The translations under genes were made by a program, and so were the position numbers. From the IMG/VR virus record IMGVR_UViG_3300010396_000027, positions 1 through 42,108 of that record: a DNA stretch of 42,108 nt; one strand, given 5' to 3'. Positions 3,740 through 33,276 of this stretch are shown piece after piece. This DNA is from a virus. Positions within the stretch are counted from its first letter, which is position 1. Each line of letters starts with the position of its first letter. A model generated the notes under the pieces. That model was not told the origin of the DNA. It saw only the letters and a list, made by a program, of their open reading frames with translations, and did no database searches.

Positions 3740-4296
3740 GAAAAATCCCGACGCTGTTCGTTCGCGACGAGGCCACGAACCGCCGCTACGTGAAGAACGA
3801 AGTCACGCCTGGCTGCGAATGGGTGCTCGCCGGTGAAGGCATCGCAACACGGAAGTACGACGGGACGTGCGTCGCGATCAACGAAGACGGCGAGTGGATG
3901 GCGCGGCGCGAAGTGAAGGCGGGCAAGGGCGCGCCTGAGAACTTCGTCCTGATCGAGCACGACGACGTGACGGGAAAGTCGGTCGGTTGGGAGCCCGCAG
4001 AGCAGAGCGGCTTCTACAAGTGGCTTCAAGAGGCCCTCGGCAACCCGTACGAGCGGCGCTATGAGGACTCCTACGAACTGTGCGGCCCGAAGGTCAACGG
4101 CAACCCGGAGAAGTTGGACAAGCACGAACTGATCCGCCACGCCGACGCTGAAGAACTCGACGCACCACGCGACTTCGACGGCCTCGCAACGTGGCTTCAC
4201 TCGCACTCTTTCGAGGGCATCGTCTGGCATCACCCTGATGGCCGCATGGTGAAGTTGAAGAAGCGCGACTTTCCCGCGTCTACCGAAGGAGCATGA
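3736..4296 (+). CDS. Compact RNA ligase (covalent nucleotidyltransferase)
   Basis: 186 residues with ordered ligase motifs: motif I RKYDGT with presumed AMP-accepting Lys40, motif III-like YELCGPKVNGN (113-122), motif IV EGIVW (160-164) and motif V VKLKKRDF (172-179). This matches the small RNA-ligase family seen in many phages (RNA ligase 1-like, DUF5565 type) rather than DNA ligases, which carry an OB domain absent here. Likely role: ATP-dependent repair of nicked RNA, such as tRNA cut by host anticodon nucleases. No polynucleotide kinase partner is visible. Strong GAAGGAG site before ATG 3736. The ligase motifs are clear; RNA as substrate is inferred from family resemblance. Confidence 0.8.
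   Translation: MRKIPTLFVRDEATNRRYVKNEVTPGCEWVLAGEGIATRKYDGTCVAINEDGEWMARREVKAGKGAPENFVLIEHDDVTGKSVGWEPAEQSGFYKWLQEALGNPYERRYEDSYELCGPKVNGNPEKLDKHELIRHADAEELDAPRDFDGLATWLHSHSFEGIVWHHPDGRMVKLKKRDFPASTEGA
4279..4292 (+). promoter_or_regulatory. Duplicated 14-bp ribosome-binding segment, copy 2
   Basis: Exact copy of 3719-3732. Its GGAG is seven bases before ATG 4299 but only one base before ATG 4293, which decides the start of the next gene in favour of 4299. Confidence 0.6.
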
Positions 4297-4298
4297 AC

Positions 4299-4445
4299 AT
4301 GGCAGCGGAATCGACACCGAAAGCTGTGGTGGAGACGATCGGCGATTACCTCGCGATGAAGGGCGACCCGCAATGTGAGGGCATCGTGGTTCGACTTGTC
4401 GAGCACCTGGAGGACGCGGGTTACATCGCGTGGGGGCTCCGCTGA
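4299..4445 (+). CDS. Small hypothetical protein, 48 aa
   Basis: Acidic, mostly helical product starting MAAESTPKAVVETIGDYLAM, with GDPQCEGIVVRLVEHLEDAGY following. Start chosen by the GAAGGAG at 4285-4291. No family recognised. Confidence 0.55.
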   Translation: MAAESTPKAVVETIGDYLAMKGDPQCEGIVVRLVEHLEDAGYIAWGLR

Positions 4446-4464
4446 TGACGCCCTCCTCGGTCGC

Positions 4465-4626
4465 GTGTTGCGGCGGTTCATCTACGACCACGGTCGCCAT
4501 GAGTCGGAGAACCCGTTCGTCTCACTGAAGTGGGGCGAGCTGCTCATCGACGGACGGATCGATGTAACCGACCCCGAACAAGCCGCCCTGGAACGCGTGT
4601 GGAGGTCGATTCCCGATGGCGTCTGA
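4465..4626 (+). CDS. Small hypothetical protein, about 53 aa, start uncertain
   Basis: The frame ending at 4626 is clearly coding (RRFIYDHGRHESENPFVSLK, then WGELLIDGRIDVTDPEQAA). No good ribosome-binding site was found. Candidate starts are GTG 4465, TTG 4468 or the far-upstream GTG 4375. The sequence just upstream of 4465 (SADDALLGRV) also looks coding, so the true start may be further upstream or non-standard. The stop overlaps the next gene. Confidence 0.5.
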   Translation: MLRRFIYDHGRHESENPFVSLKWGELLIDGRIDVTDPEQAALERVWRSIPDGV

Positions 4627-4852
4627 CCCCTTTAGGAGTACAGGAAACCCGCGGCCACTCGATGACTTCGATTTGGGACGCGCGCTCGTGAGCGTCGTCT
4701 GCGAGGAACAATCCGCCGCAGCGTGCGATCCGTTGTTCGCGGAGGTGTTGGGTCGGAACATGCGTGCCCCTCTCACAAAGGCAGCGAAGGTCGTCGCGGA
4801 GCTGGCCGAAGCGGTACGCGAGTTGCGAGTAGAGAGCGAGGGTTTGGGGTGA
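4616..4852 (+). CDS. Small hypothetical protein, 78 aa
   Basis: Starts MASDPFRSTGNPRPLDDFDL and ends with a helix rich in Ala, Glu and Val (KVVAELAEAVRELRVESEGL) that could form a coiled coil. Overlaps the previous gene by 11 bases and the next start as GTGA. Function unknown. Confidence 0.6.
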   Translation: MASDPFRSTGNPRPLDDFDLGRALVSVVCEEQSAAACDPLFAEVLGRNMRAPLTKAAKVVAELAEAVRELRVESEGLG

Positions 4853-5070
4853 GCGACGAGCGAGCGTGGGAAGTCGCAGCGGATATCGCGCAGAGCCGAT
4901 CCATCTCATTGGCAGAGGGCGCCGCGGTGATGGTTCGTGCGGCGCGCGAGATGGAGACGGCACACCGCGACCTGACCCGCATCCTGGTGAGCGCGGCCAC
5001 CGCGTTTGCGGCGGTGATGGCCCGTCGTCGGCGGCGTCCCTGGAAGGCAAACAAGAGGAGTTATGGGTGA
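4849..5070 (+). CDS. Small helical hypothetical protein, 73 aa
   Basis: Starts at GTG 4849 (GTGA overlap). An acidic, amphipathic helical N-terminal part (SDERAWEVAADIAQSRSISL) is followed by a small-residue helix (SAATAFAAVMA) and a run of five arginines near the end, a pattern of nucleic-acid-binding or membrane-edge peptides. No family recognised. Confidence 0.55.
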   Translation: MSDERAWEVAADIAQSRSISLAEGAAVMVRAAREMETAHRDLTRILVSAATAFAAVMARRRRRPWKANKRSYG

Positions 5071-5114
5071 CGGTGACCGAAGATCGGGCAGAGAGCATCG
5101 AGGAGGCAGCGTGA
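5067..5114 (+). CDS. 15-residue coupled micro-ORF
   Basis: VTVTEDRAESIEEAA. GTG 5067 overlaps the previous stop as GTGA, has GAGGAG six bases upstream, and its own TGA overlaps GTG 5111 of the next gene. It is positioned exactly like the micro-ORF at 2423-2485. A longer frame starting ATG 5063 also exists for the downstream gene, so this could be a chance ORF inside the ribosome-binding region. Confidence 0.35.
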   Translation: MTVTEDRAESIEEAA

Positions 5115-5719
5115 GCCGGCCGATCATCAGCGACCAGGAGATCGACGCGTGCCTCGACGCACTCGCCGAGCTTCAACAGCGACGTACCGCACGCGTGTTG
5201 AAGCAGGCCGTCGCGCGCAATGCCCGCGGTGGCAGCAGCAAACCTGACGGTTGGCCGCGCGGGAAGGGCTACGACGGCTCAGGCGGACCGTTGAGGATCA
5301 CCGTGGAACCGGACGAGCACGGCGGTCTGGAGTCCCTCGAATGCAACAGTGTGGAGATGGCAGTCATCGCCCGAGATCGGACACAGCGCGACGAGCTCCA
5401 CGACGCGGTAGTAGCCGCAGTGCAGAACCTCAAGCACGCGGCGAGCAACCTCGGCCAGCTGCGGGCGCGCATCGACCAGTTGGAGAACCTCGACTTCGAC
5501 GCCGAGAAAGCCAACGAGCGGAAGTGCCAGGCCATGGCAAGGATCAACGTGCACGAGGACTTCTACAAGCGCCGCGAGATCAACGGTGTCTGGTGGGACC
5601 TGGGATCCTGGGCCTACTCGTTCGCGATCGAGACCGACCGGCTGCCCACGGTGGACGAGTGCCGGGCCCGGAAGGAAGGCCGCAACGTGAAGCGACGCGT
5701 CATCGAGAAGGCGTCGTGA
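5111..5719 (+). CDS. Hypothetical protein with central coiled coil, 202 aa
   Basis: Start set at GTG 5111, preceded by GAGGAGG at 5099-5105; an in-frame ATG at 5063 would add 16 unlikely residues. The N-terminal helix (SDQEIDACLDALAELQQRR) is followed by a basic Gly-rich link, a beta-like segment (LRITVEPDEHGGLESLE), a long heptad-rich helix (QNLKHAASNLGQLRARIDQL) and a C-terminal region with WWDLGSWAYSF and basic residues. No catalytic motif recognised. It sits at the end of the replication operon. Confidence 0.65.
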   Translation: MSRPIISDQEIDACLDALAELQQRRTARVLKQAVARNARGGSSKPDGWPRGKGYDGSGGPLRITVEPDEHGGLESLECNSVEMAVIARDRTQRDELHDAVVAAVQNLKHAASNLGQLRARIDQLENLDFDAEKANERKCQAMARINVHEDFYKRREINGVWWDLGSWAYSFAIETDRLPTVDECRARKEGRNVKRRVIEKAS

Positions 5720-6003
5720 ACACCACGGGCCTCAACAAGAAGGCGCTGCTCGAAGCGAACCGACGCCTCGCGGCCGAGCTCGCACAACGTGACGGCCGCA
5801 ACCGCCCGTCACCCTGGCGCCAGCACCACTCACTCGCTGGCAAGCCCAAGCGCGCCCTCGACCACGATGAAGCAGCAGCCGCAGCGATGGGCACGGGCAA
5901 CGCGAACGAGTACCGATGCGACTGGTGCGGCCGTTGGCACATCGGCAGGCTCGGCGCGAACACGGTGCCGAACCCAGAACGCGCCCGGGAAACAGCACCG
6001 TGA
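5716..6003 (+). CDS. Small protein with C-terminal zinc-knuckle-like motif, 95 aa
   Basis: GTG 5716 overlaps the previous stop (GTGA). The N-terminal helix (LNKKALLEANRRLAAELAQR) is basic; the C-terminal half carries YRCDWCGRWHIGR, a C-x2-C-x3-H cluster seen in many phage proteins encoded next to HNH genes. It is the last gene before the terminator at 6063. Function unknown. Confidence 0.65.
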   Translation: MNTTGLNKKALLEANRRLAAELAQRDGRNRPSPWRQHHSLAGKPKRALDHDEAAAAAMGTGNANEYRCDWCGRWHIGRLGANTVPNPERARETAP

Positions 6004-6062
6004 GGACTGGAGCGGCATTGACGCCAATCCGTCCCACCCGTCAGGTATGTTTTCCCAACGTG

Positions 6063-6096
6063 AAGCGGTGTGCCTTCTGACGGCCACCGCTTTTTT
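6063..6096 (+). terminator. Rho-independent terminator ending the early operon
   Basis: Stem AAGCGGTG (6063-6070) pairs with CACCGCTT (6085-6092); inside it, GCC (6072-6074) pairs with GGC (6082-6084), with one bulged T. A T6 run follows (6091-6096). It lies between the replication operon and the HNH/packaging block, so it probably separates early from late transcription. No convincing promoter is visible in the rest of 6004-6127. Confidence 0.8.
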
Positions 6097-6127
6097 CAAT
6101 TCTCGGCCGGTGAGTCGGAGGTGCAGT

Positions 6128-6475
6128 GTGACCTCTCGACGCGCAAGCCATCGCGGTGTGAGCGCTCGCTTCCGTGGCGACGTCTCGCCCGAAGAGCTAG
6201 TCGGCCGCAACGTCACGGTGGACCCGAGCGGATGCTGGATCTGGGGCGACGATCCCGAGAAGTACGGGAACACGTCCACGCCCGACTTCAAGATCGTCGT
6301 GCACCGGTTCGTCTACGAGACGCTCGTCGGGCCGATCCCCGCCGGCCACCACCTGCACCACAAGTGCGAGGTCAAGGCCTGCTGCAACCCCGACCATCTG
6401 GAGCCGCTGACCCCCGCTGAGCACTCGGCAGCGCACAGGGAATCGCGCGCAGAGTCGATCTCGTCACCGGCCTGA
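6128..6475 (+). CDS. HNH endonuclease (HNH_3-like), copy 1
   Basis: 115 residues. GTG 6128 is preceded by GGAGG at 6117-6121. After a basic N terminus and a GCWIWG segment it carries HRFVYE, then HHLHHKCEVKACCNPDHLEP, the HNH_3-type histidine/cysteine signature of phage HNH nucleases, with AEHSAAH at the end. These enzymes cut DNA and are either homing endonucleases or packaging partners. It is the first of three HNH genes immediately before terminase. Confidence 0.82.
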   Translation: MTSRRASHRGVSARFRGDVSPEELVGRNVTVDPSGCWIWGDDPEKYGNTSTPDFKIVVHRFVYETLVGPIPAGHHLHHKCEVKACCNPDHLEPLTPAEHSAAHRESRAESISSPA

Positions 6476-11767: not shown

Positions 11768-12718
11768 ATGGCGATTACCGCCTCAACCCAACGATCCGAT
11801 TTCTCGGGGTTTCTGCCCCGACACATCGCGGCGCCGTTCTTCGAGACCGCACGCCGTAACTCGGTGCTGATGCAACTCGCCCGCGAAGTGCCGCTGTCGA
11901 TCAACGGCGAAGCGATCCCCGTCGTGACCGGCCGACCCACTGCGAACTGGGTCGCTGAAGGTGCGCAGAAGCCCGCCTCGCACGGGACCATGACGCTCGA
12001 CACGATGGACCCGAAGAAGCTGGCGTGCATCGCGGTCGTGTCGCAGGAAGTCGTGCGTGCCGATCCCGGCAACTACGTCACGAACCTCCGCGACGACATC
12101 GGTGAGGCGTTCGCGATCGCGTTCGACCTCGCCGGTTTCCACAACCTGGGCGGCGACGGCACGGGCACCGGCCCGTTCTCGTCGTATATCGACCAGACCA
12201 CGAAGTCGGCCGAGCTCGGCGCAACATCGCAGGCCAACGGTGGCCTGTACGTCGATCTCGTCGAAGGCATGGACGAGATCATCACGCAGCCCGATCTCGC
12301 CGGGACCCGCAAATACAAGGTGACCGGCTTCGCGTTCGACACGCAGATGGAGACCCGGTTCCGGCGTGCGGTCAGCACGACCGGTGAGCCGCTCTGGACG
12401 GATCTCCCGACGCAGACCGAACCCAGCGCGCTCACGCAGACGGGCACCACGATGGGTCGCCGGTCGTTCATGGGCGACGGTGTCGCGAACAGCACCGGCA
12501 AGATCCTCGGCTACGTCGGAGACTGGTCACAGGTCGTGTGGGGTCAGATCGGCGGGATCAACTACTCCCTGTCCGACCAGGCCACCGTCACGATCAACGG
12601 CTCGTTGGTCTCCCTGTGGGAGAACAACCTCGTCGCGATCCGGGCAGAGACCGAGTTCGGGTTCGTCGTGAACGACCCGAAGGCGTTCCTCCAGTACCGC
12701 AACGACTCCGGTAGCTGA
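11768..12718 (+). CDS. Major capsid protein (HK97 fold)
   Basis: 316 residues preceded by AAGGAG. Features of HK97-type capsids: an N-terminal FLPRHIAAPFFETARRNSVL segment, VPLSINGEAIPVVTGRPTAN and WVAEGAQKP typical of the family, SQEVVRADPGNYVTNLRDDI (spine-helix region), and a C-terminal LVAIRAETEFGFVVNDPKAF segment, a hallmark of the P-domain end. No N-terminal delta domain precedes it, in line with a separate scaffold gene. Confidence 0.92.
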   Translation: MAITASTQRSDFSGFLPRHIAAPFFETARRNSVLMQLAREVPLSINGEAIPVVTGRPTANWVAEGAQKPASHGTMTLDTMDPKKLACIAVVSQEVVRADPGNYVTNLRDDIGEAFAIAFDLAGFHNLGGDGTGTGPFSSYIDQTTKSAELGATSQANGGLYVDLVEGMDEIITQPDLAGTRKYKVTGFAFDTQMETRFRRAVSTTGEPLWTDLPTQTEPSALTQTGTTMGRRSFMGDGVANSTGKILGYVGDWSQVVWGQIGGINYSLSDQATVTINGSLVSLWENNLVAIRAETEFGFVVNDPKAFLQYRNDSGS

Positions 12719-12732
12719 TCGGAGCCTTGGTC

Positions 12733-13329
12733 ATGGCCGAGCCGCTCGCAACAGACAACGATGTTGCCGGGCGGCTCGGCCGCGACCTCACATCAGACGA
12801 ACTCGCACGTATCGACACGCTCCTCGCGGACGTGTCCGCGGCAGTGCGCGCATACGCGGGACAGACGTTCACGCAAGAACAGACCACCGATCTTGTGACG
12901 ATCCGCAACCGAGCGGTGCGGCTACCGCAGCAGCCCATCACTGACGTCGCGTCAGCAGTCGACCAGTTCGGTAACAATGTCCCGTTCATCTGGATTACGG
13001 GCGACACGATGATCGCGTTGGCGAGCTCGACGTGGGTGAACGCGTTCGAGTTGAACCTCTATCCGTGGACGCGGCTCTCGAAGGTCCGGGTGACCTATAC
13101 GCACGGCTACGAGACCGTCCCTGACGACGTTGTCGCGGTCGTGTGCTCGGTTATCGGCCGCGCGCTGGGTGTGTCACCCACTCAGGGTGGCATCACGTCC
13201 GAGTCCATCACGAACTACTCGTACACGATCGGTTCTGCGGCAGCGCAGGGGCCATTCGGGCTGATGGCCGAAGAGAAATCGGTCCTCGACCGGTACCGCA
13301 CCCTCGCGGGACCTGCCTGGATGCTTTGA
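12733..13329 (+). CDS. Head-tail connector (adaptor, gp6/gp15-like)
   Basis: 198 residues starting at ATG 12733 with GGAG upstream (an in-frame TTG lies at 12727). N-terminal helices (DNDVAGRLGRDLTSDELARI), a beta-rich middle (VTIRNRAVRLPQQPITDVAS) and KVRVTYTHGYETVPDDVVAV are the usual pattern of the adaptor that binds below the portal. Its stop codon overlaps the first glycosyltransferase start, so the accessory cassette is translationally coupled to the structural operon. Confidence 0.82.
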   Translation: MAEPLATDNDVAGRLGRDLTSDELARIDTLLADVSAAVRAYAGQTFTQEQTTDLVTIRNRAVRLPQQPITDVASAVDQFGNNVPFIWITGDTMIALASSTWVNAFELNLYPWTRLSKVRVTYTHGYETVPDDVVAVVCSVIGRALGVSPTQGGITSESITNYSYTIGSAAAQGPFGLMAEEKSVLDRYRTLAGPAWML

Positions 13330-13991
13330 TCGTCATCATCATCCCGGTCTTACGCAGACCGTGGCGCGTGCAACCCCTCGTGGATTCGATCGAGGCGAAT
13401 ACCCTCGCCGAACACCGAACACTGTTCGTCGCGTCTCCAGGCGACGACGACGAGATCGCAGCGATCAATGACGTTGGCGCCGAATGGATCGAAACGCCGG
13501 AGCAGTACCCGTCGGGCGACTACGCCCGCAAGATCAACCTCGCCTACCGGGCGTCGTGGGAACCGCTCATGTTCCTCGGCGCCGACGATCTGTGCTTCCA
13601 TCCCGACTGGTTCGAGAAGGCGTCCGCGAAGTTCGGCGGCGACATCGGAGTCGTCGGTACGAACGACCTCGGCAACCGGCGCGTCATGCAAGGCGTACAT
13701 GCCACTCACTCGCTCGTGAGCCGCGAATACATCGACCGGCACGGCACGATCGACGAACCCCACAAGGTGCTCCACGAGGGCTACCAGCACAACTGGGTCG
13801 ACACCGAGTTCGTTGGCACCGCGCAACATCGTGGCGCGTTCATCTCAGCCCGCGAGAGTGTCGTGGAACATCTACACCCTCACTGGAACGCGGACGTTCC
13901 TGTAGACAGCACTTACGAGCACGGCCTCTCCGGCTTTGAACGGGACCGCCGCTATTACCTCGGCAGACAGCACCTGTGGAACGGGAGGTGA
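13326..13991 (+). CDS. Glycosyltransferase-like protein (GT-A fold), cassette gene 1
   Basis: 221 residues, starting at TTG 13326 (LIVIIIPVLRRPWRVQPLVD), which overlaps the connector stop. The first strand and helix resemble family-2 glycosyltransferases; GADD at residues 85-88 fits the metal/nucleotide-sugar binding DxD position. Downstream HEGYQHNWVDTEF and HLHPHWNA hold His/Asp residues seen in phage GT-A enzymes. It would transfer a sugar from a nucleotide-sugar donor. The TTG start and very tight coupling suggest low, stoichiometry-controlled expression. No membrane segment, so it should act in the cytoplasm. Confidence 0.75.
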   Translation: MIVIIIPVLRRPWRVQPLVDSIEANTLAEHRTLFVASPGDDDEIAAINDVGAEWIETPEQYPSGDYARKINLAYRASWEPLMFLGADDLCFHPDWFEKASAKFGGDIGVVGTNDLGNRRVMQGVHATHSLVSREYIDRHGTIDEPHKVLHEGYQHNWVDTEFVGTAQHRGAFISARESVVEHLHPHWNADVPVDSTYEHGLSGFERDRRYYLGRQHLWNGR

Positions 13992-13993
13992 CG

Positions 13994-14635
13994 ATGGACG
14001 TTACGGTCTGCATCGGTACCTTCGGCTCCAAGGAATGGGCCGACCTCGCCCACGAACGTGCCATCCCGTCCGTCGAACGTCAAGGCGTCACCTGGGTGCA
14101 TCTGAACCGCGCGACGCTGCACGAAGCGCGCAACGAATGCCTCGACTACGTGACCACCGAGCACGTCTGTTTCCTCGACGCCGACGACGAGCTGGAGCCC
14201 CACTATTTCGAGCACATCGCCAAATCCGACGCTGACGTTCGTGTCCCATCCGTCAGGTACGTTCGCAACGGGTTCGATCAGGGTGTCCGGATGCCGACGA
14301 TCGCCGGCCACACGCACGTCTGCGTCCCCGACTGCCTCGCTTACGGCAACTACTGCGTGATAGGTACTGTCGCCCCCACGCACCTCTTGCGCGAGGTTGG
14401 CGGGTTCCGCGACTTCGCGTGGTCGGAGGACTGGGATCTTTGGGTGCGCTGCTGGAAAGCCGGTGCGACGTTCGAGAACGTCGAACGCGCCGTGTACCGC
14501 GCGCACGTCCGTACCGACTCCCGCAACCGCGGCCAATCGCAGGACGCGAAGAACGCCGCGCATGCCGCGATCGCGGAAGCGAACGGCCTGCCGTGGCCGC
14601 TCCCGGTGAACCACCAAGCTCTGGTGGACGCGTGA
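13994..14635 (+). CDS. Family 2 glycosyltransferase, cassette gene 2
   Basis: 213 residues; start ATG 13994 with GGGAGG at 13983-13988. Standard GT2 layout: VTVCIGTFGSKEWADLAHER (nucleotide-binding strand), DADD at 62-65 after VCFL, and the acceptor-side GGFRDFAWSEDWDLWVR, whose ED-x-D-L-W is the usual GT2 catalytic base region. C-terminal WPLPVNHQALVDA. It is coupled by GTGA to the next gene. The donor sugar and acceptor cannot be read from sequence. Confidence 0.88.
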   Translation: MDVTVCIGTFGSKEWADLAHERAIPSVERQGVTWVHLNRATLHEARNECLDYVTTEHVCFLDADDELEPHYFEHIAKSDADVRVPSVRYVRNGFDQGVRMPTIAGHTHVCVPDCLAYGNYCVIGTVAPTHLLREVGGFRDFAWSEDWDLWVRCWKAGATFENVERAVYRAHVRTDSRNRGQSQDAKNAAHAAIAEANGLPWPLPVNHQALVDA

Positions 14636-15303
14636 CGGTCACGCTCGTCGTGTTCACCGACGGCCGTGACCACATCTACGAGACACTCCCGTCAGCGGTC
14701 GCGAACCTCGACGGGCCGATCTCGCGTCGGATCATCTACGACGACACCGGCGATGCACTCAACCGCGCTCGCCTCGCGGACGCGTTCCCGACGTTCACGA
14801 TCACGCATAGCCCCGATGGACGCCAAGGGTTCGGTGGCGCGATCCGATTCATGTGGCAATGGCTCGCCGCATCCGATACCAACACTTACGTCCTGCACCT
14901 CGAGGACGATTTCCTCTTCGACCGTGAAGTGAACCTCGCAGCGATATGCCAACTGCTCGACACGCATCCTTCACTCGTACAGGTCGTGTTGAAACGGCAG
15001 GCGTGGAGTGACGAGGAGATCGCAGCCGGTGGGGTCGTGCAACGCAACCCAGGCGCCTACGTGGAGCACGAGTGGGGCGATCACGCGTACCTGACACACC
15101 GCGAGTTCTGGAGCACGAACCCGTGCCTGTATCGGCGGACGCTCTGTGAGCGCGGCTGGCCCGACGATCCGTACAGCGAAGGGAAGTTCGGCGCGCTGAT
15201 CCGTGATGAGTCAGTAGCGATGCCGTTCGCGTACTGGGGTGCCCGGAACGATCCGCCGCTTGTCACGCACGTCGGTGACCAACGCGCAGGCGTCGGTTAC
15301 TGA
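14632..15303 (+). CDS. Glycosyltransferase-like protein, cassette gene 3
   Basis: 223 residues from GTG 14632 (VTVTLVVFTDGRDHIYETLP). The centre holds VLHLEDDFLF, with E91-D92-D93 at the donor-binding position of GT-A enzymes, preceded by GFGGAIRFMWQWL. WGDHAYLTHREFWSTNPCLY and WPDDPYSEGKFGALI follow as an acceptor-side region. It overlaps the methyltransferase start as TGATG. Similarity is to phage glycosyltransferases encoded among structural genes. Confidence 0.78.
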   Translation: MTVTLVVFTDGRDHIYETLPSAVANLDGPISRRIIYDDTGDALNRARLADAFPTFTITHSPDGRQGFGGAIRFMWQWLAASDTNTYVLHLEDDFLFDREVNLAAICQLLDTHPSLVQVVLKRQAWSDEEIAAGGVVQRNPGAYVEHEWGDHAYLTHREFWSTNPCLYRRTLCERGWPDDPYSEGKFGALIRDESVAMPFAYWGARNDPPLVTHVGDQRAGVGY

Positions 15304-15920
15304 TGACCTTCGCGATCAAACCTGGCTACCAAGAAAACCCTGGGCCGGTCTACTTCCTCGATGACGTGACCTCGACGCGCGGGCTCGTGTTTCAACCGGA
15401 CGTTTACACGCTCGCGGAGTTCCTGGCGGAGATCACCGGCGGCGAGATCATCGACGTGGGTTGCGGTTGGGGCGACAAGCTCGCCGGTATCCATGAACGG
15501 CACCCGTCGTGGGGGCTGCTCGGGATCGACTACGGCGACAACATCGCCCACTGCCGCGACGCGTACACCTGGGGGACGTGGATCGACGCCGACCTCGAAG
15601 AGATCGAACGGATAGACGCGCGTGGTGCGATCGTCGTCTGCTCCGATGTCGTAGAGCACCTCGTAGACCCCCGGCCGCTGCTCCACGCGCTGCGCGACTC
15701 GCAAGCGACCGCGATCATCCTCTCGACACCGGAACGCGACGTACAGCACGGCGCGCACCACAACGGCCCGTCACCGAACCTGTGTCACGTACGCGAGTGG
15801 AACGTTGCCGAGTTCCGCGAGTTCCTCACCGGCGAAGGGTTGAACGTGCGTCATCAGGGATTGACGCGCGGTCATGACCAGTCATGGATCATGCCGACAC
15901 AGTTGGCGATCTGTACGTGA
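15303..15920 (+). CDS. SAM-dependent methyltransferase (class I), cassette gene 4
   Basis: 205 residues with a clear class I methyltransferase motif I IIDVGCGWGDKL (49-60), LLGIDYGD (strand 2), VVCSDVVEHLVDPRPLLHAL (motif II/III region) and AIILSTPERD. It is sandwiched between glycosyltransferases and coupled to both, so the parsimonious role is O-methylation of the added glycan (a capping step), rather than DNA or protein methylation. It lacks the NPPY/PCQ motifs of DNA methyltransferases. Confidence 0.85.
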   Translation: MTFAIKPGYQENPGPVYFLDDVTSTRGLVFQPDVYTLAEFLAEITGGEIIDVGCGWGDKLAGIHERHPSWGLLGIDYGDNIAHCRDAYTWGTWIDADLEEIERIDARGAIVVCSDVVEHLVDPRPLLHALRDSQATAIILSTPERDVQHGAHHNGPSPNLCHVREWNVAEFREFLTGEGLNVRHQGLTRGHDQSWIMPTQLAICT

Positions 15921-16705
15921 CGGATGTCGCCGGGATCACGATGTGCCGGGACGAAGCGGACATCATCGGCCCGTTTCTCCGCAAGCTCGCCGCACAAGTC
16001 GACTTCATCGTGATCGCCGACAACAACAGCGTTGACGGCACACGCGACATCCTCGCCGATCTTGAACGTGAATTGCCCCTGACGGTCCTAGATGATCCAG
16101 AGGTCGGATACTTCCAATCCGCGAAGATGACTGACCTCGCGCACCGTGCAGCGTCGCTCGGTGCAACGTGGGTTGTTCCAGCCGATTGCGATGAAGTCTG
16201 GTATGCGCCCTTCCATCATCGGGTAGCCGACCTTCTTGAAGAGCTCGCGCCGCAGTGGTTCTGTGCCGCAGCCACGCTCTATGACCATGTAGCTACCGCG
16301 ATCGACCCCGACGAACCGGACCCGTTGTCGCGTCTCGGGTGGCGCCGACGCGAACCGGCACCGTTGGTGAAGGTCGCATGCCGTGTCCGCGACGACCTGA
16401 CGATCAACCAGGGAAACCACTCGGCCAGCTACGACGGCGGCGCGACGGTCTACACCGACCATCTCGTGATCCGGCACTTCCCGTATCGCAGCTCGGAGCA
16501 GATGATCCGCAAAGCATTGAACGGTGCGGAGGCGTACGCAGCGACCGACCTTCCCGAAGACCAGGGGGCGCACTGGCGGCAATACGGCCAACTCATCGCG
16601 CAAGAGGGCGAAGCGGCATTCACGGAGAACGTGTTCCGCAAGTGGTTCTGGTCGGCTGATCCGAACGCTGATCGATCGTTGCTCTTTGATCCGTGTCCCG
16701 TGTAA
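15917..16705 (+). CDS. Family 2 glycosyltransferase, cassette gene 5
   Basis: 262 residues; GTG 15917 overlaps the methyltransferase stop (GTGA); an in-frame ATG at 15884 would add 11 residues. It begins VTDVAGITMCRDEADIIGPF, followed by VIADNNSVDGTRDIL, with the ADCDEVW motif (D90-C-D92-E93) as metal site. This resembles the GT2 subfamily whose members start MVRDE and read DNxSxDGT. The C-terminal half (TVYTDHLVIRHFPYRSSEQM) fits that subfamily too. Likely adds a further residue to a growing glycan. Confidence 0.87.
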   Translation: MTDVAGITMCRDEADIIGPFLRKLAAQVDFIVIADNNSVDGTRDILADLERELPLTVLDDPEVGYFQSAKMTDLAHRAASLGATWVVPADCDEVWYAPFHHRVADLLEELAPQWFCAAATLYDHVATAIDPDEPDPLSRLGWRRREPAPLVKVACRVRDDLTINQGNHSASYDGGATVYTDHLVIRHFPYRSSEQMIRKALNGAEAYAATDLPEDQGAHWRQYGQLIAQEGEAAFTENVFRKWFWSADPNADRSLLFDPCPV

Positions 16706-17379
16706 GCATCATCGTCCCGCGCGCCGGCGACTGCCCGCACCGCGAACGCGCATGGCAATGGGTACGCAGCCAGTACGAAGATTTCGAGGTCGTCGAAGGT
16801 TGGGGCGACGCTGACCGATGGGTGAAAGCCGAAGCTGTGGCGGATGCGCTCGACCGAGCGACAGGCGACATCCTCGTCCTGCACGATGCGGATGTGTGGT
16901 CCGATCACCTGCACGAAGCGATTGCCACGGTGGAGTCAGGTAAGCACCAGTGGGGATCGCCGCACTGGACAGTACGCAGGCTCACCGAGCAGGGAACGAT
17001 GCTGTTCCTGGATGGTGAGCGCGAGTCAGCAGAGATCGAAGAGGATCATCACGCGGTACTCGGCGGCGGCATCGTTGTCGTGAGACGCGAGGCATACGAA
17101 CAGGCACCGTTCGACCCGCGGTTTGTGGGTTGGGGTCAGGAAGATAAGGCCCTTGCGGCGGCGCTCAGGTCATTGTGCGGAGCGCCGTTCGTTGACCGTC
17201 AGCCGCTCTGGCATCTCTGGCATCCGCCACAACCGCGAATGAGCCGTCGGGATGGGTCGGAAGCTGGCGTCGCTCTCTGGCGACGCTACATAGCCGCTCG
17301 GGCATGGCCCGAGCGGATGCGCGAACTGATCGAGGAGGGCCGAGCATGCCTATCACCCGGTTCTTCACCACGCCTGTAA
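16693..17379 (+). CDS. Galactosyltransferase-like glycosyltransferase (GT7/27 C-terminal motif), cassette gene 6
   Basis: 228 residues; GTG 16693 overlaps the previous gene by 13 bases. After VSRVSIIVPRAGDCPHRERA, a DxD-type HDADVW motif lies at 64-69 and the C-terminal part contains FVGWGQEDKALA (144-155), which corresponds to the GWGxED signature of GT7/GT27 galactosyl- and GalNAc-transferases. WHLWHPPQPR near the C terminus holds the usual metal-binding histidines. It overlaps the next structural gene by 34 bases. Confidence 0.85.
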   Translation: MSRVSIIVPRAGDCPHRERAWQWVRSQYEDFEVVEGWGDADRWVKAEAVADALDRATGDILVLHDADVWSDHLHEAIATVESGKHQWGSPHWTVRRLTEQGTMLFLDGERESAEIEEDHHAVLGGGIVVVRREAYEQAPFDPRFVGWGQEDKALAAALRSLCGAPFVDRQPLWHLWHPPQPRMSRRDGSEAGVALWRRYIAARAWPERMRELIEEGRACLSPGSSPRL

Positions 17380-17696
17380 CGATCATCGAACCCGGCAGTT
17401 CATCGGACGGCTACAGCGGAACCGCACCCGACTGGCAACATCCCGCGTCCCAACGGCACGTCAACGGATGGCTCACCCAAGTTTCAACCACGGAAGAAAT
17501 CGGTGGCCGTGACGTGACCGTCACCTACGACGAGCTCACACTCCCCGCAGGGGACCCGATCACGTCGGCAGCCCGCGTGCAATACGCCACCGACTTGTTC
17601 GAGGTCGACGGCCGACCCCAACGGTCCCGTACTCCGGGCCAGTCGGATCATCACGTCATCGTCCGGTTGCGGCTCGCGACAGAGGTGACCGTATGA
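17346..17696 (+). CDS. Head closure (stopper) protein
   Basis: 116 residues with GGAGG upstream of ATG 17346. N-terminal MPITRFFTTPVTIIEPGSSS followed by beta-strands (VTVTYDELTLPAGDPITSAA; VQYATDLFEVDGRPQR) matches the small beta-barrel stoppers that follow adaptor genes. This marks the resumption of the connector block after the glycosyltransferase cassette, which therefore splits adaptor from stopper. Confidence 0.7.
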   Translation: MPITRFFTTPVTIIEPGSSSDGYSGTAPDWQHPASQRHVNGWLTQVSTTEEIGGRDVTVTYDELTLPAGDPITSAARVQYATDLFEVDGRPQRSRTPGQSDHHVIVRLRLATEVTV

Positions 17697-18456: not shown

Positions 18457-18993
18457 ATGGCGGCGAACACAGCAGCGAACGTCCTGGTCGGTGCGACCGG
18501 CCACGTCTACGGCGCCCCCTCGGGCACGTCTCTCCCCACCCACGAGATCGAAGGTCTCAACGCCTCGTTCGTGAACCTCGGCTACATCTCCGAGGCCGGT
18601 GTCGTACAGCACATCTCCGGCTCGGTCACCACGATCAAGGCGTGGGGCGGTGACGTGATCCGCAAGGTCCGCACCGAGCACGACCTCACCTTCGATGTCG
18701 TGATGATCGAAACGAACCCGACATCGCTCGGCACGTACTACGGGCCGCAGTCCGACGCCGCGACCGTCACGGAGATCAAGGCCAACAACGGGCTCCGTCA
18801 GTCGTGGGTCATCGATGTCGTAGACGGCACGAACCTCGTCCGGATCGTCATTCCCGACGGTGAAGTGCTCGAGACCGGCGACGTGACATACGCGACAGCG
18901 AACGCGATCTCGTACCCGATCACGATCTCCGCATACGCGGACGGTTCGGGCAACAAGGCGTACGTGTACGCGCACGACACGGGCGCTTCCTGA
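18457..18993 (+). CDS. Major tail protein
   Basis: 178 residues with AAGGAG upstream. Mostly beta-strands; begins MAANTAANVLVGATGHVYGA and contains HISGSVTTIKAWGGDVIRKV and LTFDVVMIETNPTSLGTYYG, the sequence pattern of tail-tube proteins of actinophages. It precedes the tail-assembly chaperones, as usual. The gap 18359-18456 holds only weak inverted repeats (GACAC/GTGTC around 18390-18407) and the ribosome-binding site. Confidence 0.85.
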   Translation: MAANTAANVLVGATGHVYGAPSGTSLPTHEIEGLNASFVNLGYISEAGVVQHISGSVTTIKAWGGDVIRKVRTEHDLTFDVVMIETNPTSLGTYYGPQSDAATVTEIKANNGLRQSWVIDVVDGTNLVRIVIPDGEVLETGDVTYATANAISYPITISAYADGSGNKAYVYAHDTGAS

Positions 18994-27349: not shown

Positions 27350-27769
27350 ATGCCCACAATCCTTGATCTCGTCTGGAAGCCCAGCGCGGACGCGCCCACA
27401 CTCCCGACCGACACCTACCCGGTGCTCGCTCCCGCGGTGTACCGCAACGACGGGTACTCGATCCACTTCACGCTCTCCGATGGTGACGACCCGTACGTGC
27501 CGGAAGGGACGTTGACCGCGCAGATCCGTAAGGCGCGACTCGCCGCGGGCGCAACCCCCGGCGAGCCGCTCGCGTCGTTCGACGTGACAGTCGGCGGCGA
27601 TAACGGTAACGAGGTGACGCTCGACCTCGACGAGACGATCACCGAAGCGCTTCCCGATTCCGCGTATTGGGACTTGCAGGAGTCGTTCGTCGATGGGCCG
27701 CCGCGGACATGGTTCACGGGCCGCGTGAAGGCGTGGGGCGACATCACGCGTGACGAGGACGGCTCGTGA
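27350..27769 (+). CDS. Fibre-attachment/baseplate-like protein (BppU-like N-terminal)
   Basis: 139 residues starting at ATG 27350 with GAGAAAGG upstream. [20 protein letters not shown], followed by QIRKARL, strongly recalls the beta-sandwich N-terminal domain of upper-baseplate or fibre-attachment proteins, in which DGDD/P and QIR recur. It is coupled as GTGA to the first collagen-like fibre gene and probably links it to the tail. Confidence 0.65.
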
Positions 27770-30135
27770 ACGTCGACATCGAGGTGCAGGTCGGCACATC
27801 ACCGACCGTCGATGTCGACGTGCAGATCGCACCGCCGACGTTCACCGTCGTGTCGGTGCTGCCTACGGGTCCGCGAGGACCGCGCGGCATCGGCATCCCC
27901 ACCGGTGGCAACCCGGGCCAGTTCGTCGTCAAGACCGGCCCGGCTGACGGTGAGCTCGGCTTCATCGACCCCGACGCGGCGACGCAAGGCCCGACAGGTC
28001 CCACAGGACCAACAGGCGCAACCGGTCCGCAGGGAACCCCCGGCGCGGCGGGCGCTGCCGGTGCGACGGGTCACACTGGCCCGACCGGTGCTACTGGCCC
28101 CACGGGGGCGACTGGTTCACAAGGCATCCAGGGCTCGACGGGTGCCACGGGCGCTACGGGATCTCAAGGCGCGCAAGGTGTCGCGGGTCCTATTGGTGCG
28201 ACGGGGCCGCAGGGTTCCGCGGGCACGAACGGTGCCACCGGTGCAACCGGGCCGACCGGAGCTACGGGCAGCGCGGGCGTTCAAGGCCCCACCGGCGCGA
28301 CGGGAGCTACTGGCTCGCAAGGGTTGCAGGGCATAGCAGGTCCGACAGGTCCGACCGGGAGCACGGGCGCGACGGGCACGGCCGGTGCTCCCGGCTCGGC
28401 TGGCGCAACGGGTCCCACGGGACCAACGGGACCAACGGGCGCAACCGGATCGCAAGGTGTTCAAGGAGTCGCCGGCCCAACTGGACCTACCGGTGCGACG
28501 GGAAGTGCTGGCACTCCGGGTTCGGCCGGGGCAACCGGTCCGACAGGACCGACTGGCGCGACAGGGACCGCAGGTTCACCAGGCGCGGCCGGAGCAACTG
28601 GACCGACAGGTCCCACGGGTACCACGGGTAGCGCTGGAAGTAATGGCGCGCCCGGCGCGACAGGCCCCACCGGTGCTACTGGACCGCAGGGAATCGCGGG
28701 ACCAACAGGAGCGACAGGCGCGACCGGTCCTGGTGGGTCGTCCACGGTCGATGTCACGCAGACCGCCCACGGCTTCTCATTCGGTGACGCGGTCAGGTAC
28801 GACGGCTCCGAGTACGTGCACGCGCAAGCCGACTCAGCCGCGCACGCGGAGGTCATCGGCTTGGTCTCCGCGGTTACTGACGCGGATCACTTCACGCTCT
28901 CCACCGGTGGACGCATCGACGGATTCACCGGCGCGACCGCAGGCGAGGTCTACTTCCTCGACCCCGACAATGCGGGCCTGTTGACGTTGACGGAACCGAC
29001 GACAGTCGGGCAGATATCGAAGCCGCTGCTCATCACAGACTCGACCACGAGCGGGTTTTTCGTGAACTTTCGTGGCGAAGTCATCGCGGATCTCGGTACA
29101 GGAGGAGGGGGAAGCTGGATCTACGGCGACGGTTCCGATGGCGAACTCATAGTTCCCGTGGCATCGCGCGACATCACCGACGCTGTGCTGACCGTCGGGT
29201 CTACGACGCTCACGTCGGACACCGCGGACTTCACCTCCGACGACCTGCACACGCTCGTCGACGTTTCCGTGAGCGACTTCCACCTTGCGGTGGGCACCAT
29301 CGTCACGATCAACTCTCCAACGTCCGTCGAGCTGTCGCGCCCATCGGACGTGTCGACGAGCAGCGCGACCATCGGATCGAATCGCGTCCCGACCGGCTGG
29401 CGTTGGACCGACGTCACCGTCGTCGAAGGCGCAACCTTCACGATCTCCCCGCTCCTCTTCCCGATCACCGGCATCGCTGCCGACGCCTTCGGGGAGGACT
29501 GGAAAGTGCCCTCGGTGATGATGGTCGGAACGGACACCTTCACCATCAATGGCACGCTCGATCTTCACGGGCAGAGCGCGTCCGGCGCGACCCCCGGCGA
29601 CGGTTCGTTTTTCGTAGGCGCAGCGGGAACGACTGGGGACGGAGCCCTCCCGGCAGTCCCCTACTCCGGCATGACTGCCGACGGACAATCCGGCGATGGC
29701 GACGGTCATCCCGGCACTTCAGTCGGAAAACTGAACTTCGAGGGAGCTCCGCTTCTTGACCCGGTACTCCTGCGCTCGTTCCGCGACGGACTCTGGCCGG
29801 GGACCCCAGGAGCGAGCGGCGGGGGTGATGGATCGCACGCAGGAGGCGCAGGCGGCAACGCAGGCACGAGCGCGCTCATCTGCTTCCGGCACATCGTGCA
29901 TGGCCCATCGAATCTCTACGACCTGCGCGGCGGTGACGGCGGTGACGGCGACCCGGCCGGGAACTGCGGTGGTGGCGGCGGTGGTGGCGGCGTATGGTGG
30001 ATGACCATCTCCGACGACCTCACCGGCGACGCGAATATCAGCGGCGCGGGTGGCGCGGGTGGTACGGGCTCGGGAACGGGTACCGATGGCCAGTCAGGCG
30101 AGGACGGTTTCGTGATCCACGTGCTGAACACCTGA
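27766..30135 (+). CDS. Tail fibre with long collagen-like domain, 789 aa
   Basis: GTG 27766 overlaps the previous stop. After a beta N terminus the product runs about 83 uninterrupted Gly-X-Y triplets (27988 to about 28735), mostly Gly-Pro-Thr, Gly-Ala-Thr and Gly-Ser/Ala-Gln/Gly. Then come beta-rich domains and a Gly-rich C terminus (about residues 740-789) with a polyglycine run (GGGGGGGV). Such triple-helical stalks carry a receptor-binding head. The many Thr in the third triplet position are likely solvent-exposed and could be O-glycosylated. Confidence 0.85.
27988..28735 (+). repeat. Collagen-like Gly-X-Y repeat tract, fibre 1
   Basis: About 83 consecutive codon triplets encoding Gly-X-Y with codon-diverse GGN, CCN/GCN and ACN sequences; imperfect tandem 9-bp and 18-bp units. 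Not CRISPR: no conserved repeat/spacer alternation. Confidence 0.9.
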
Positions 30136-30209
30136 TGCGCGTGATGGGTCTCTCTATCTGGCAGCCCGCGCGCGGCCACGAAACTTCTGAAGGGTGGGAG
30201 ATCCGATGA
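30135..30209 (+). CDS. 24-residue coupled micro-ORF between the two fibres
   Basis: Starts as TGATG at the stop of fibre 1, ends with a TGA overlapping ATG 30206 of fibre 2 (ATGA). Product begins [20 protein letters not shown]. It is the third gap-filling micro-ORF with overlaps at both ends, so a translational relay rather than a functional peptide is a fair reading. Confidence 0.4.
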
Positions 30210-32068
30210 CCGGTTCCGCGTTTCAAGCCGTCATCGGCGCCGACGGACCCACAGGACCGACCGGCGCGACCGGCGCGACGGGTGCTGATGGATCACCCGG
30301 CAGCGCTGGCGCGACTGGTCCCACTGGCCCGACAGGTGCAACGGGAAGTGCCGGGTCGCCAGGTAGCCCGGGAAGTGCTGGAGCAACAGGTCCGACGGGA
30401 GCTACCGGGCCTACGGGTTCGGCGGGAAGCAATGGCTCCAACGGCGCGACGGGACCCACGGGCGCAACGGGTCCCACAGGTGTCACTGGTCCGACAGGAA
30501 CCACGGGAACCACGGGAGCGACCGGGCCAACGGGAGCAACCGGCGCGACTGGACCGAGCGCGCTCACCACGAAGGGCGACATCGCCACCTACGACACGGG
30601 CGTCGCGCGTCTTCCTGTCGGCACCAACGGTCAGGTACTCGTCCCCGACTCCGCGCAGGCGAAGGGGATCAAGTGGGCGAACCTCGGCGACCTCACCGAG
30701 ATCGGATCACTGCAAGCGATTGCGCTTGTGCAAGCCGCGCAGATCGCAGCCGAACAGCGCGCGGACTCTGGTTACTACGTCGGCCAGGGCTGCGCGATCG
30801 GCGTCTCCGGAACGGCAGGGAAGCTCTCGATCACTGCGGGCACCGTGATCGTCGGGACTACCGATCTCGCGGTCGCGGCCGCGAGTGCAATCACCGGCAC
30901 GGACAGTTCGCACGACGACATCACCGAACTCGCGGATGCAACCAATCCGAAGTGGGTCGTCGTTGAACTCGACAGCTCGGGCATCAGCTACAACCAGGGC
31001 ACCGCAGCCGCGACGCCGGCAATCCCCGCGTTCACCGCGTCACGTGTTCCGCTCGCGCTGCTCTACATCCCCGCAGCGGCGACGAACTCGACCACGATCG
31101 ATTCGCTCCTCACGACAGCGAACGGCAACGTCAAGCTCGTCAGCATCGCGGTCACGCGTCTCGGACCGACGGCCACCGGCTGGCAGTACGACCAGGACAC
31201 ATGGACGTACGAGGGTGGCGGCATGGCCGGCTGGCTGTTCTCAACAACCAACAACCCCACCACGTATCTCCCGCCCGGCACGAAGGTGTCGTTCAACGAT
31301 GGCTCCGTGAAGTACGGGGTCGTCGCGCACTCGTCGTTCTCACCTGCGACACCGCTCACGTCGGTGTCGAGTTCGTCAACGCCATCATCGGATAGCAAGC
31401 TCAACAAGACGGCGCACGGCCTGAATAACGGCGACGTGGTGACCCTCTCCGGCGTCTCGGGAACGACTGGCATCGCGAACAGCACGAACTACTACGTGGT
31501 GACGGTTACCGCGAACGCGTTTCAGCTCTCCAACACCTTGCGCGGAGCGGCGATCACCCTCGGGGGAACCCAAGACACTGGCATCACGGTTACCGGCGTG
31601 AAGGCTGTCACGCTGATTCCGAACGCGACGTACACGATGTCGAACGCGACACTCGTCCGACCGCGCTTCTCCTACCAGGACAACCCGCAAGCTGGAAGCT
31701 TCGACTGGATCTTCACGTGGACCCCCACGCTGTCGGGATGGAGTGCAGCACCGACCGGGAACTTCTACCGGTTCTCGACGAGCGGCACGAAGATCACCCT
31801 GTTCATAGCGCAGGGCACCGGCGGCGCGGGAACGAGCAACAACGCAACGCACACCGCGTCCCTGCCCGTTAACCCGAAGTTGCTCTCGTTCATGCTCTGG
31901 ATGAACCCGTGCTACGCGATCGACAACGGCACCAACCAGACCGGACTCCTACGCATCGCGTCCGGCGCCACGGTTATCGGCCTGAACGGCATCATCGCTT
32001 CCGCGAACAACACAAGCTCGGGGAGCAGCGCGATCCTTGGCGGCCAGATCACCTACGAGTTCGCATGA
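30206..32068 (+). CDS. Second tail fibre with collagen-like domain, 620 aa
   Basis: ATG 30206 has GGGAG upstream. Residues 11-118 are 36 Gly-X-Y triplets, again rich in Gly-Pro-Thr and Gly-Ala-Thr. Next comes [19 protein letters not shown], related to the GGTTGQVLTK repeats of the protein at 24644, then an Ala-rich helical and beta region and a Ser/Thr-rich C-terminal half. It probably forms another trimeric fibre or receptor-binding protein. Ends ATGA into the esterase gene. Confidence 0.82.
30236..30559 (+). repeat. Collagen-like Gly-X-Y repeat tract, fibre 2
   Basis: 36 consecutive Gly-X-Y triplets. Shares the Gly-Pro-Thr/Gly-Ala-Thr motif composition of the tract at 27988-28735, allowing recombination between the two fibre genes. 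Confidence 0.9.
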
Positions 32069-33276
32069 CGATCCAACAGCTCGCGCTCGTCGGCGACTCG
32101 CAGACCGAGGGCACCTACCTCGACTACGCGTACTCGCGCAGCGGGCAAGGTTCATGGTTCGAGCTGCTTCGCGATCGCCTCGCGAACGTCGCGGGCATTG
32201 GTCCTCTCATCAGCTCCGGCTTCCGTGGCGTGGGTCTCGGTCTCGCCGGATCGGTCGAGTGGAGCTTCACATCGGGTGCTGATGTCTGGACCGCGATCAC
32301 GAGCGCGAGCGCGTTCGACAAATGCCCGTACGGCATCGCCCGCTACGCATTCGGCGCATCGAAGATCGCGACCTACACGATCCCGAACCGCCAGCGCGCC
32401 AACATCGGCTTCGCGCTCTACTACGTCGACCTCGGTGTCGGCGGGAACTGGCAGTACCGCATCGACGGCGGCACCTGGACGAACATGGGTCAGACGCTCG
32501 CCCACAACGACGCGCTCTGCAAGTTCTACGTCTCCACCCCCGTCACCTCGACCGTGGACATCCGAGCGTCGTCGGATGCTACGACGGGCGTGAACTGCGT
32601 ACCCGCCGGGATCGAGCTGTTCTACGCGAGCCCGTCGTCGACGCAAGGGCTGATCGTCCACAACATCGCGCTCGACGGCCTCGCGCTGCACGAACTCGCA
32701 CTTTCGGGCTCCGGTGATCGGATGGCCTGGTTCGACTCGGTAACGCAACGAGGATCGAACACGATCACGAACACGCCCGCCGCGGGCATGGTCGTGATGC
32801 AGATGACGAACGACTGCCACGTGATAAACAACGCGGCGACGTACGCGGCCGATCTCACTACGGTTCGGAACCGGCTCGCACCGATCGGCCCGCTCCTCGT
32901 GATGAACCCGTGGGAGTACTTCTCGGAGTCATCCCAGCAAGCCACCTATCGAGCGCAGACGAAGACGACGTGCGCTGGCTTCTCACCCGCTGTGCCCGTG
33001 TTCGATCTCTACGACGCGTGGTCATCGAACGGCATCACGGGCTACGCGGCGGCAGCAGCCGCCGGGCTCATGGGTGACAGCACGCACGACTCTCAACTCG
33101 GTCACTTCGACGTCGCCAACCGCGTCCTCTGGCAGATCCGCAACCGCTTCTTCCCATCATTCGCGAGCGCAGGCTCATCGGCGCCGGTCGTCGGGAAGCG
33201 CGCGACCCCCGCGTACTCGGGCAAGCTCGCGAACGTCGCGTACGCAGGCGCGCCGATCTCGTTGGTGCCGGTCTGA
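32065..33276 (+). CDS. SGNH/GDSL hydrolase (tail-associated esterase), 403 aa
   Basis: ATGA overlap with fibre 2. The N terminus carries the block I motif [11 protein letters not shown] with catalytic Ser12; [10 protein letters not shown] near residues 338-347 gives the C-terminal Asp/His pair. The middle (about 60-230) is a beta-rich insertion resembling a carbohydrate-binding or fibre domain. SGNH proteins next to tail fibres usually deacetylate host polysaccharide or glycolipid during adsorption. No signal peptide. Here it could also act on glycans added by the phage's own enzymes. Confidence 0.83.

Follow-up and report, generated by a model that had tools for sequence, protein, structure and literature searches.

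Glycosylation of phage virions has so far been reported for a few mycobacteriophages (PMC12363180, PMC11256854 and PMC12619734). The virions of Che8 and Corndog are described as glycosylated (PMC12363180), glycans are reported on Che8 virion proteins (PMC12363180, PMC11256854) and mycobacteriophage glycans are placed at the C-termini of the capsid and tube proteins (PMC12619734). Outside the phages, chlorovirus PBCV-1 uses virus-encoded machinery to build a complex glycan on its major capsid protein, Vp54, with a terminal rhamnose that is doubly methylated (PMC9614988). The DNA analyzed here, hereafter the window, is a stretch of 42,108 nucleotides making up an uncultivated virus record (IMGVR_UViG_3300010396_000027). 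It carries a set of putative glycan-building genes among those for head and neck proteins.

The gene block between adaptor and stopper

Positions 13326 to 17379 of the plus strand, on which the neighboring, capsid, tail-tube and TPR-fused transferase genes described below also lie, are filled by six coupled genes for five GT-A glycosyltransferases and one class I methyltransferase. On the left is the head-tail adaptor gene (12727-13329; phrog_442, 3.5e-27), whose stop is overlapped by the TTG start of GT1 (13326-13991; motif FLGADD). There follow GT2, a family 2 glycosyltransferase (13976-14635; FLDADDE), GT3 (14632-15303; LEDDF), a class I SAM methyltransferase (15303-15920), GT5 of the Glyco_tranf_2_4 type (15884-16705; ADCDE) and GT6, which resembles galactosyl- and polypeptide-GalNAc-transferases (16693-17379; HDAD and GWGQED). 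The head closure or stopper gene (17346-17696; phrog_501, 1e-13) closes the block on the right. The original prediction had placed six coupled genes between an adaptor and a stopper, and both the coordinates and the PHROG matches of the two neighbors agree with it.

Matches above the curated Pfam cut-off were obtained for GT2 (PF13632, 2.2e-8; PF00535, 2.7e-7), GT5 (PF13704, 3.8e-10) and the methyltransferase (PF13489, 3.9e-7; 30.4 bits against a cut-off of 27). GT6 remained under the Pfam cut-off, its assignment resting only on phrog_1721 (1.8e-10). GT3 matched phrog_3047 (3.9e-12) and no Pfam model, while GT1 matched neither Pfam nor PHROG models, nor any of the phage records searched at E<=0.01. 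For these two the assignment relies on fold. The AlphaFold2 model of GT1, made from a 25-sequence family, has a pLDDT of 94.9 and 420 Foldseek matches in the PDB at E<=0.001, with SpsA at the top; that of GT3 has a pLDDT of 94.8 and 487 PDB matches, to GT-A enzymes. The models settle both as GT-A folds, the outcome expected when structure prediction was proposed as a check, and the Pfam, PHROG and AlphaFold/Foldseek evidence together bears out the count of five transferases and a methyltransferase. The claim that membrane segments are lacking also held: no membrane-like segment was found in the six proteins, the highest 19-residue hydropathy being 1.45. The further transferase, fused to TPR repeats, that had been proposed at 33276 is present 3' of the fiber genes (33276-34379; phrog_13126, 8.4e-68, plus TPR_2). 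It lies outside the conserved cassette described below and had no match in the first 149 loci, most of which are related to the cassette and extend no more than about 10 kb downstream.

A cassette with fixed order and an exchangeable slot

A search for the same block in other phages, also suggested at the outset, found it with the order GT1-GT2-GT3-slot-GT5-GT6 kept in 38/38 complete non-redundant cassettes. The carriers are dozens of uncultivated phages whose proteins are otherwise hardly similar: identity to the window's proteins is 31-59% for the transferases and 25-31% for the portals, and mostly undetectable for TerL. Hosts include at least Actinomycetes, and some carriers are prophages, for instance in Parafrankia soli. 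Among 50,697 annotated phage records, the five-transferase cassette is all but missing. It is inserted in the head/neck block at no fewer than three different junctions, the neighbors at three of them being head/neck proteins by PHROG, and it is confined to this block in those carriers where placement was possible.

The position between GT3 and GT5, taken in the window by the methyltransferase, is a slot in which tailoring enzymes are exchanged; most of them are methyltransferases, drawn from several families. A methyltransferase as a fixed member of the cassette was rejected: phmmer with the window's enzyme returned one weak relative, and the slot families are unrelated. That the slot methyltransferase acts on a sugar, rather than on protein or RNA, is inferred from its sharing the slot with other tailoring enzymes. 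The slot resembles variable steps in bacterial polysaccharide loci and hints that selection favors variety in the coats of phage particles.

Placement also bears on what the enzymes modify. Temperate phages convert host surface sugars, and the presence of the cassette in some prophages would fit enzymes that alter the host surface for superinfection exclusion or receptor change. We hold this to be extremely improbable: the six proteins have no membrane segments (flippase genes were not searched separately), every carrier that could be placed has the cassette among head genes, and virion proteins bear a matching tag (see below). Collagen-like spore proteins are glycosylated by glycosyltransferases, and the acceptors could likewise be Thr residues of the collagen-like (Gly-X-Thr) segments in the window's two large tail fibers, where long Gly-Pro/Ala-Thr repeats occupy 27766-30135 and 30194-32068 with the TPR-fused transferase 3' of them. 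However, PF01391 repeats occur in only 13/37 carrier records, which rules them out as the universal acceptor; several records without collagen are long (52-173 kb), and the cassette lies among head genes, not fiber genes. We regard this reading as very unlikely; the fiber, singled out earlier as a possible beneficiary, is a less plausible specific acceptor than the capsid and tail tube. The third candidate is a hypermodified DNA base built by these enzymes, such as glycosylated 5-hydroxymethylcytosine. Phage glycosyltransferases able to act on DNA are cited in PMC12619734, and carrier G403 has a gene for a Tet_JBP protein. It is, however, the only such record among 32, in which thymidylate-synthase-type hydroxymethylases number 0/32 and C5 methylases 8/32; the cassette itself contains no DNA-modification enzyme, and neither Tet_JBP nor the thymidylate-synthase family was found in the window genome. 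DNA modification was rejected on the Tet_JBP and thymidylate-synthase counts and is given next to no credence. Fibers, DNA and host surface are all less likely targets than capsid and tail.

A terminal serine on capsid and tail-tube proteins

The two predicted acceptors flank the block. The major capsid protein (MCP; 11768-12718), a homologue of annotated major capsid proteins, ends in RNDSGS, and the major tail, or tube, protein (MTP; 18457-18993; phrog_117, 4.9e-44) in HDTGAS. The final Gly-Ser (12710-12715) and Ala-Ser codons (18985-18990) are predicted to encode C-terminal O-glycosylation tags. In the carriers, across several capsid families, capsid and major tail proteins have Ser as last residue, mostly as [Gly/Ala/Ser/Thr]-Ser. 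Among the transferase-bearing loci fetched, a terminal Ser was found in 17/17 MCPs of the window's capsid family and 33/34 MTPs, and was rare elsewhere (portal, 1/39; protease/mhp, 2/44; TerL, 1/39; neck, 0/13), although frequent in stoppers (13/41) and terminators (11/40).

Phages without transferases mostly have capsid and tail homologues devoid of the tag. The capsid Gly-Ser is absent from four aligned transferase-less homologues of the window protein, and among named phages the tag is missing in D29, AGM4, Jace, Hum25, ArV2 and Spartoi; the transferase-less Alpacados capsid ends in Thr-Ser. Since a scan with tail proteins yielded only 6 control loci, control phages were sampled with capsid profiles. 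In this sample the tag was present in 7/7 loci with cassette-type transferases versus 15/105 without (Fisher p=4.7e-6). PF00535 matched in 2/50 capsid-sampled contigs, both tagged. Tags on MCP and MTP were concordant (8 loci with both, 28 with neither, 3 discordant; p=6e-6). Because the sequences have common ancestry, these p-values overstate independence.

Some observations do not fit. In one carrier clade (L062, L066 and L149) the capsids end in Ala, against the tag reading. Five cassette-less loci have both tags; four of them contain some other candidate gene of carbohydrate, glycerophosphate or methyltransferase type, two being weakly supported, and no such gene was seen in L256 or in several singly tagged cassette-less loci, all of these contigs being fragments. 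Nor was the distance from MCP to MTP significantly increased in cassette-less tagged phages (p=0.25, stand-alone test). Tags without a visible transferase, the exceptional clade and the terminal Ser of stoppers and terminators leave room for another interpretation, namely that virions are glycosylated at some other site or protein and the terminal Gly/Ala-Ser is an unrelated signal of assembly or ancestry. This we consider unlikely: the tag recurs across several PHROG capsid families as well as in tail proteins, and the C-terminus is the attachment region reported for mycobacteriophages (PMC12619734). We lean, if only slightly, toward a broader proposal: terminal [Gly/Ala/Ser]-Ser would serve generally as a tag for glycosylation, having arisen several times on phage capsid and tail-tube proteins that are not related, and phages with the tag would pick up decoration cassettes, exchangeable for one another, in their neck blocks. 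These would include the five-transferase core, other transferases and methyltransferases, and possibly glycerophosphate-type polymers. If true, coated virions would be widespread among uncultivated phages, and the C-terminal residues of just two proteins would suffice to predict them.

Proposed pathway and relation to described systems

The conserved cassette, its confinement to head/neck genes in the carriers that could be placed, the homology of GT6 to a Che8 transferase and the tag that accompanies the transferases make a virion-glycosylation module, as originally proposed, the best reading of the block. Very probably, the six genes make a methylated oligosaccharide and attach it to the phage's own major capsid and tail-tube proteins; no glycan has been measured. 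The pathway would operate in the cytoplasm during late gene expression. By inference, GT6, the member common to Che8 and Corndog-type phages, or else GT3 would initiate the chain at the terminal Ser; its elongation would fall to GT1, GT2 and GT5, and the slot methyltransferase would O-methylate a sugar. The resulting coat would alter particle recognition or extracellular stability, a use that was not tested. With the tag as a predictor of the modified virion proteins, the site, spread and use of phage glycan coats become testable from sequence.

Likeness to PBCV-1 is a functional analogy only, the Vp54 glycan being N-linked to Asn in a eukaryotic virus. GX15bay (MK557849, Caudovirales), the sole annotated phage record found with GT2, GT3 and GT5 relatives, groups them with additional transferases and a gene annotated as a methyltransferase in a single block; unlike in the window, this block lies 5' of the terminase, outside the neck block, in another order and with an extra annotated rhamnosyltransferase. 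Closer ties are found through GT6, whose HMM detects Firecracker gp35 (7.5e-37), Che8 gp109 (3e-33) and prophiGD102-1 gp75 (5e-31); the capsid and tail proteins of the last phage end in RAGS and AGS. Firecracker, a Corndog-type phage, has an O-methyltransferase, two annotated transferases and one hypothetical protein (gp33-gp36) among its head genes; its capsid ends in LVGS and its tail protein in GDS. Several transferases plus a methyltransferase in this location had been put forward as new; Firecracker precedes, and the window is not the first of its kind. It differs from Firecracker, whose genes lie at the portal/protease junction, include fewer transferases and lack detectable GT1, GT2 and GT5 families. 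Che8 likewise encodes transferases (gp108-gp110), and its capsid and tail ends (KTGS and SDGS) are like those of the window (SGS and GAS). GT3 is only weakly linked to gp110, reported as an essential transferase (HMM, 3e-6; hhalign probability, 7%). Unlike in the window, the three annotated Che8 transferases lie near the right genome end, outside the neck block, with no annotated methyltransferase adjoining them, and GT1 and GT5 relatives were not detected. Since Che8 combines reported glycans with Gly-Ser ends and a GT6-family protein, gp109, the window system is, as judged by sequence comparison, a mycobacteriophage-type variant: a new, expanded form of that virion glycosylation, widespread in uncultivated phages.

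Gene content of the cassette in the window and in uncultivated phages

The late operon of the window runs in the order portal, protease-like protein, scaffold, capsid, adaptor, six genes, stopper, neck protein, terminator and tail protein, with adaptor and stopper identified from PHROG profiles. The six genes (13326-17379) each overlap or abut the next. Genes 2, 4 (the methyltransferase) and 5 are called by Pfam and gene 6 by PHROG; gene 3 has a PHROG match and a confident structure model, while gene 1 is identified by its structure model alone. Both models show a GT-A fold, as had been anticipated for the transferases. The sequence motifs named in the original prediction were all found, and the statement that the six proteins lack membrane segments was upheld, no membrane-like segment being detected in any of them.

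Viral contigs were scanned with gene 6 and later with an alignment of gene 1, yielding 77 and 74 loci, respectively; profiles of the window's genes were placed on the loci, with clustering at 95% identity. Gene 1 is present in 72 clusters, 38 of which (window included) contain all five transferases. The same block recurs in other phages: the best-match order is GT1-GT2-GT3-GT5-GT6 (numbered as the window's genes) in 38/38. GT1 and GT2 overlap or abut in nearly every case; wider gaps lie mainly between GT2 and GT3 and between GT3 and GT5. Proteins encoded in the gaps include methyltransferases of the Methyltransf_23, Methyltransf_24 and FkbM types, NAD-dependent epimerases, Polysacc_synt_2 dehydratases, a PIG-L-type de-N-acetylase (match below cut-off) and occasional HNH or endonuclease VII enzymes. 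Given this variety, the slot between the transferases is exchangeable and the window's methyltransferase is one of its occupants.

An HNH or endonuclease VII gene lies inside the cassettes of loci L066 (4558-5298) and L129 (13467-14267), where a link to cassette mobility is possible. Elsewhere in the window, two large fibre proteins (27766-30135 and 30194-32068) contain long collagen-like Gly-Pro/Ala-Thr repeats with Thr highly regular at the third position, and a tail protein (31909-33276) that resembles GDSL/SGNH hydrolases only weakly (PF13472, E=0.004, below cut-off) adjoins a TPR-fused transferase. A 103-kb carrier contig (L191, that of locus L037) encodes a Tet_JBP oxygenase distant from the cassette.

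Insertion sites and distribution

Placed by the window's profiles, 14 of the 38 cassettes lie at the adaptor-stopper junction, six between capsid and adaptor, three between stopper and neck protein and seven after an adaptor with no recognised stopper; eight remained unplaced. Key neighbours were confirmed by PHROG. Among the unplaced, the cassette of L037 is flanked by a portal/protease protein on one side and a phrog_777 capsid on the other; that of L118 comes immediately 3' of a phrog_10 capsid. The junction varies even among the phages whose capsid and portal most resemble the window's (53-65% identity), GT1 following the capsid in L088, the adaptor in L108 and the stopper in L090. In another close structural relative (L027, 5226-7455), a GT-B-type enzyme and two methyltransferases replace the GT1-GT5 core between stopper and neck protein, in an insert that also holds a GT6 relative. 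Transferase identity stays roughly constant (31-59%) whether portal identity is 26% or 60%, and a tree of concatenated transferases implies at least eight junction changes if cassettes behind an adaptor but without a recognised stopper are treated as a separate state. On the simplest reading of these comparisons, the cassette is a mobile or re-inserted module that nonetheless stays with the head genes.

Only one of 50,697 annotated phage records, GX15bay, has GT2, GT3 and GT5 relatives as a block; a single-sequence tblastn search with GT1 over the same records gave no match. Host evidence consists of a prophage in Parafrankia soli and one more genome (395 genomes of its class were searched), whose 3.6-kb locus comprises adaptor, GT1, GT2 and GT3. 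A short contig from an acidobacterial MAG was also found, but misbinning is possible.

A C-terminal serine on capsid and tail-tube proteins

While C-termini were being listed, a terminal Ser, mostly preceded by Gly, Ala, Ser or Thr, was seen at the end of 17/17 capsid and 33/34 tail proteins in cassette loci, all chosen by their transferases. It is present in 1/39 portal, 2/44 protease-like, 1/39 TerL, 2/28 scaffold and 0/13 neck proteins of these loci, and at intermediate frequency in stoppers (13/41) and terminators (11/40); these, about a third and a quarter, might be modified too. In the capsid alignment, the tag is a short extension past the C-terminus of homologues from phages without an annotated transferase (within the fetched region only). 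Carriers with other capsid families (phrog_283, phrog_1328) are also tagged, and the phrog_777 capsid of L037 ends in ..TVGS. In the carriers with other capsid families, 24 of 27 candidate capsids end in Ser; a few were picked from several ORFs by size and position, and PHROG assigns all ten tested as major head proteins. The three exceptions (L062, L066, L149) form a single clade with capsids ending in Ala, where either the acceptor differs or the tag has been lost.

Because these loci had been selected by transferases, a second sample was drawn by capsid. Among its 112 non-redundant capsids, the tag is found in 7/7 accompanied by cassette-type transferases versus 15/105 without (p=4.7e-6; tag p-values take no account of shared ancestry). 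Capsid and tail tags are concordant in 36/39 loci. PF00535 matched only two of 50 capsid-sampled contigs, both tagged. Five phages carry both tags without the cassette. One (L275), whose capsid and tail protein end in GSGS, encodes, between capsid and stopper (4047-6365), a protein of 773 residues that contains a CDP-glycerol glycerophosphotransferase domain; a virion coat of the glycerophosphate type is possible there. L345 has a nucleotide-sugar-transferase-like/methyltransferase fusion between capsid and tail protein (transferase part below cut-off), L224 encodes a fusion protein with an FkbM methyltransferase between its stopper and neck genes, and L267 has a weak GT-B match; no candidate decoration gene was found in the 13 kb of L256.

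Proposed pathway and relation to glycosylated mycobacteriophages

What is observed is which enzyme families occur, how and where their genes are arranged, and the tag; that a glycan is attached, in which order the steps run and what the glycan is used for are inferred. Late in infection, the enzymes would modify the subunits of capsid and tail tube in the cytoplasm. An enzyme common to Che8-type phages, GT6 or possibly GT3, would start the chain at the terminal Ser, the remaining transferases would extend it and the slot enzyme would methylate it.

Che8, Corndog and Myrna are described as mycobacteriophages with glycosylated proteins (PMC12363180), and mycobacteriophage glycans are reported at the C-terminal ends of the capsid and tail-tube subunits (PMC12619734). 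The capsid and tail proteins end in ..NKTGS and ..YSDGS in Che8, in ..LVGS and ..KGDS in the Corndog-type phage Firecracker and in ..RAGS and ..IAGS in prophiGD102-1, which has transferases; those of D29, AGM4 and Jace have other endings, without the tag. Transferases combined with a methyltransferase had been put forward as new. This cannot be maintained, since in Firecracker the interval from portal to protease already carries transferases and an O-methyltransferase. The link between Che8 gp110 and GT3 is weak; the GT6 family is common to the window, Che8 (gp109), Firecracker (gp35) and prophiGD102-1 (gp75).
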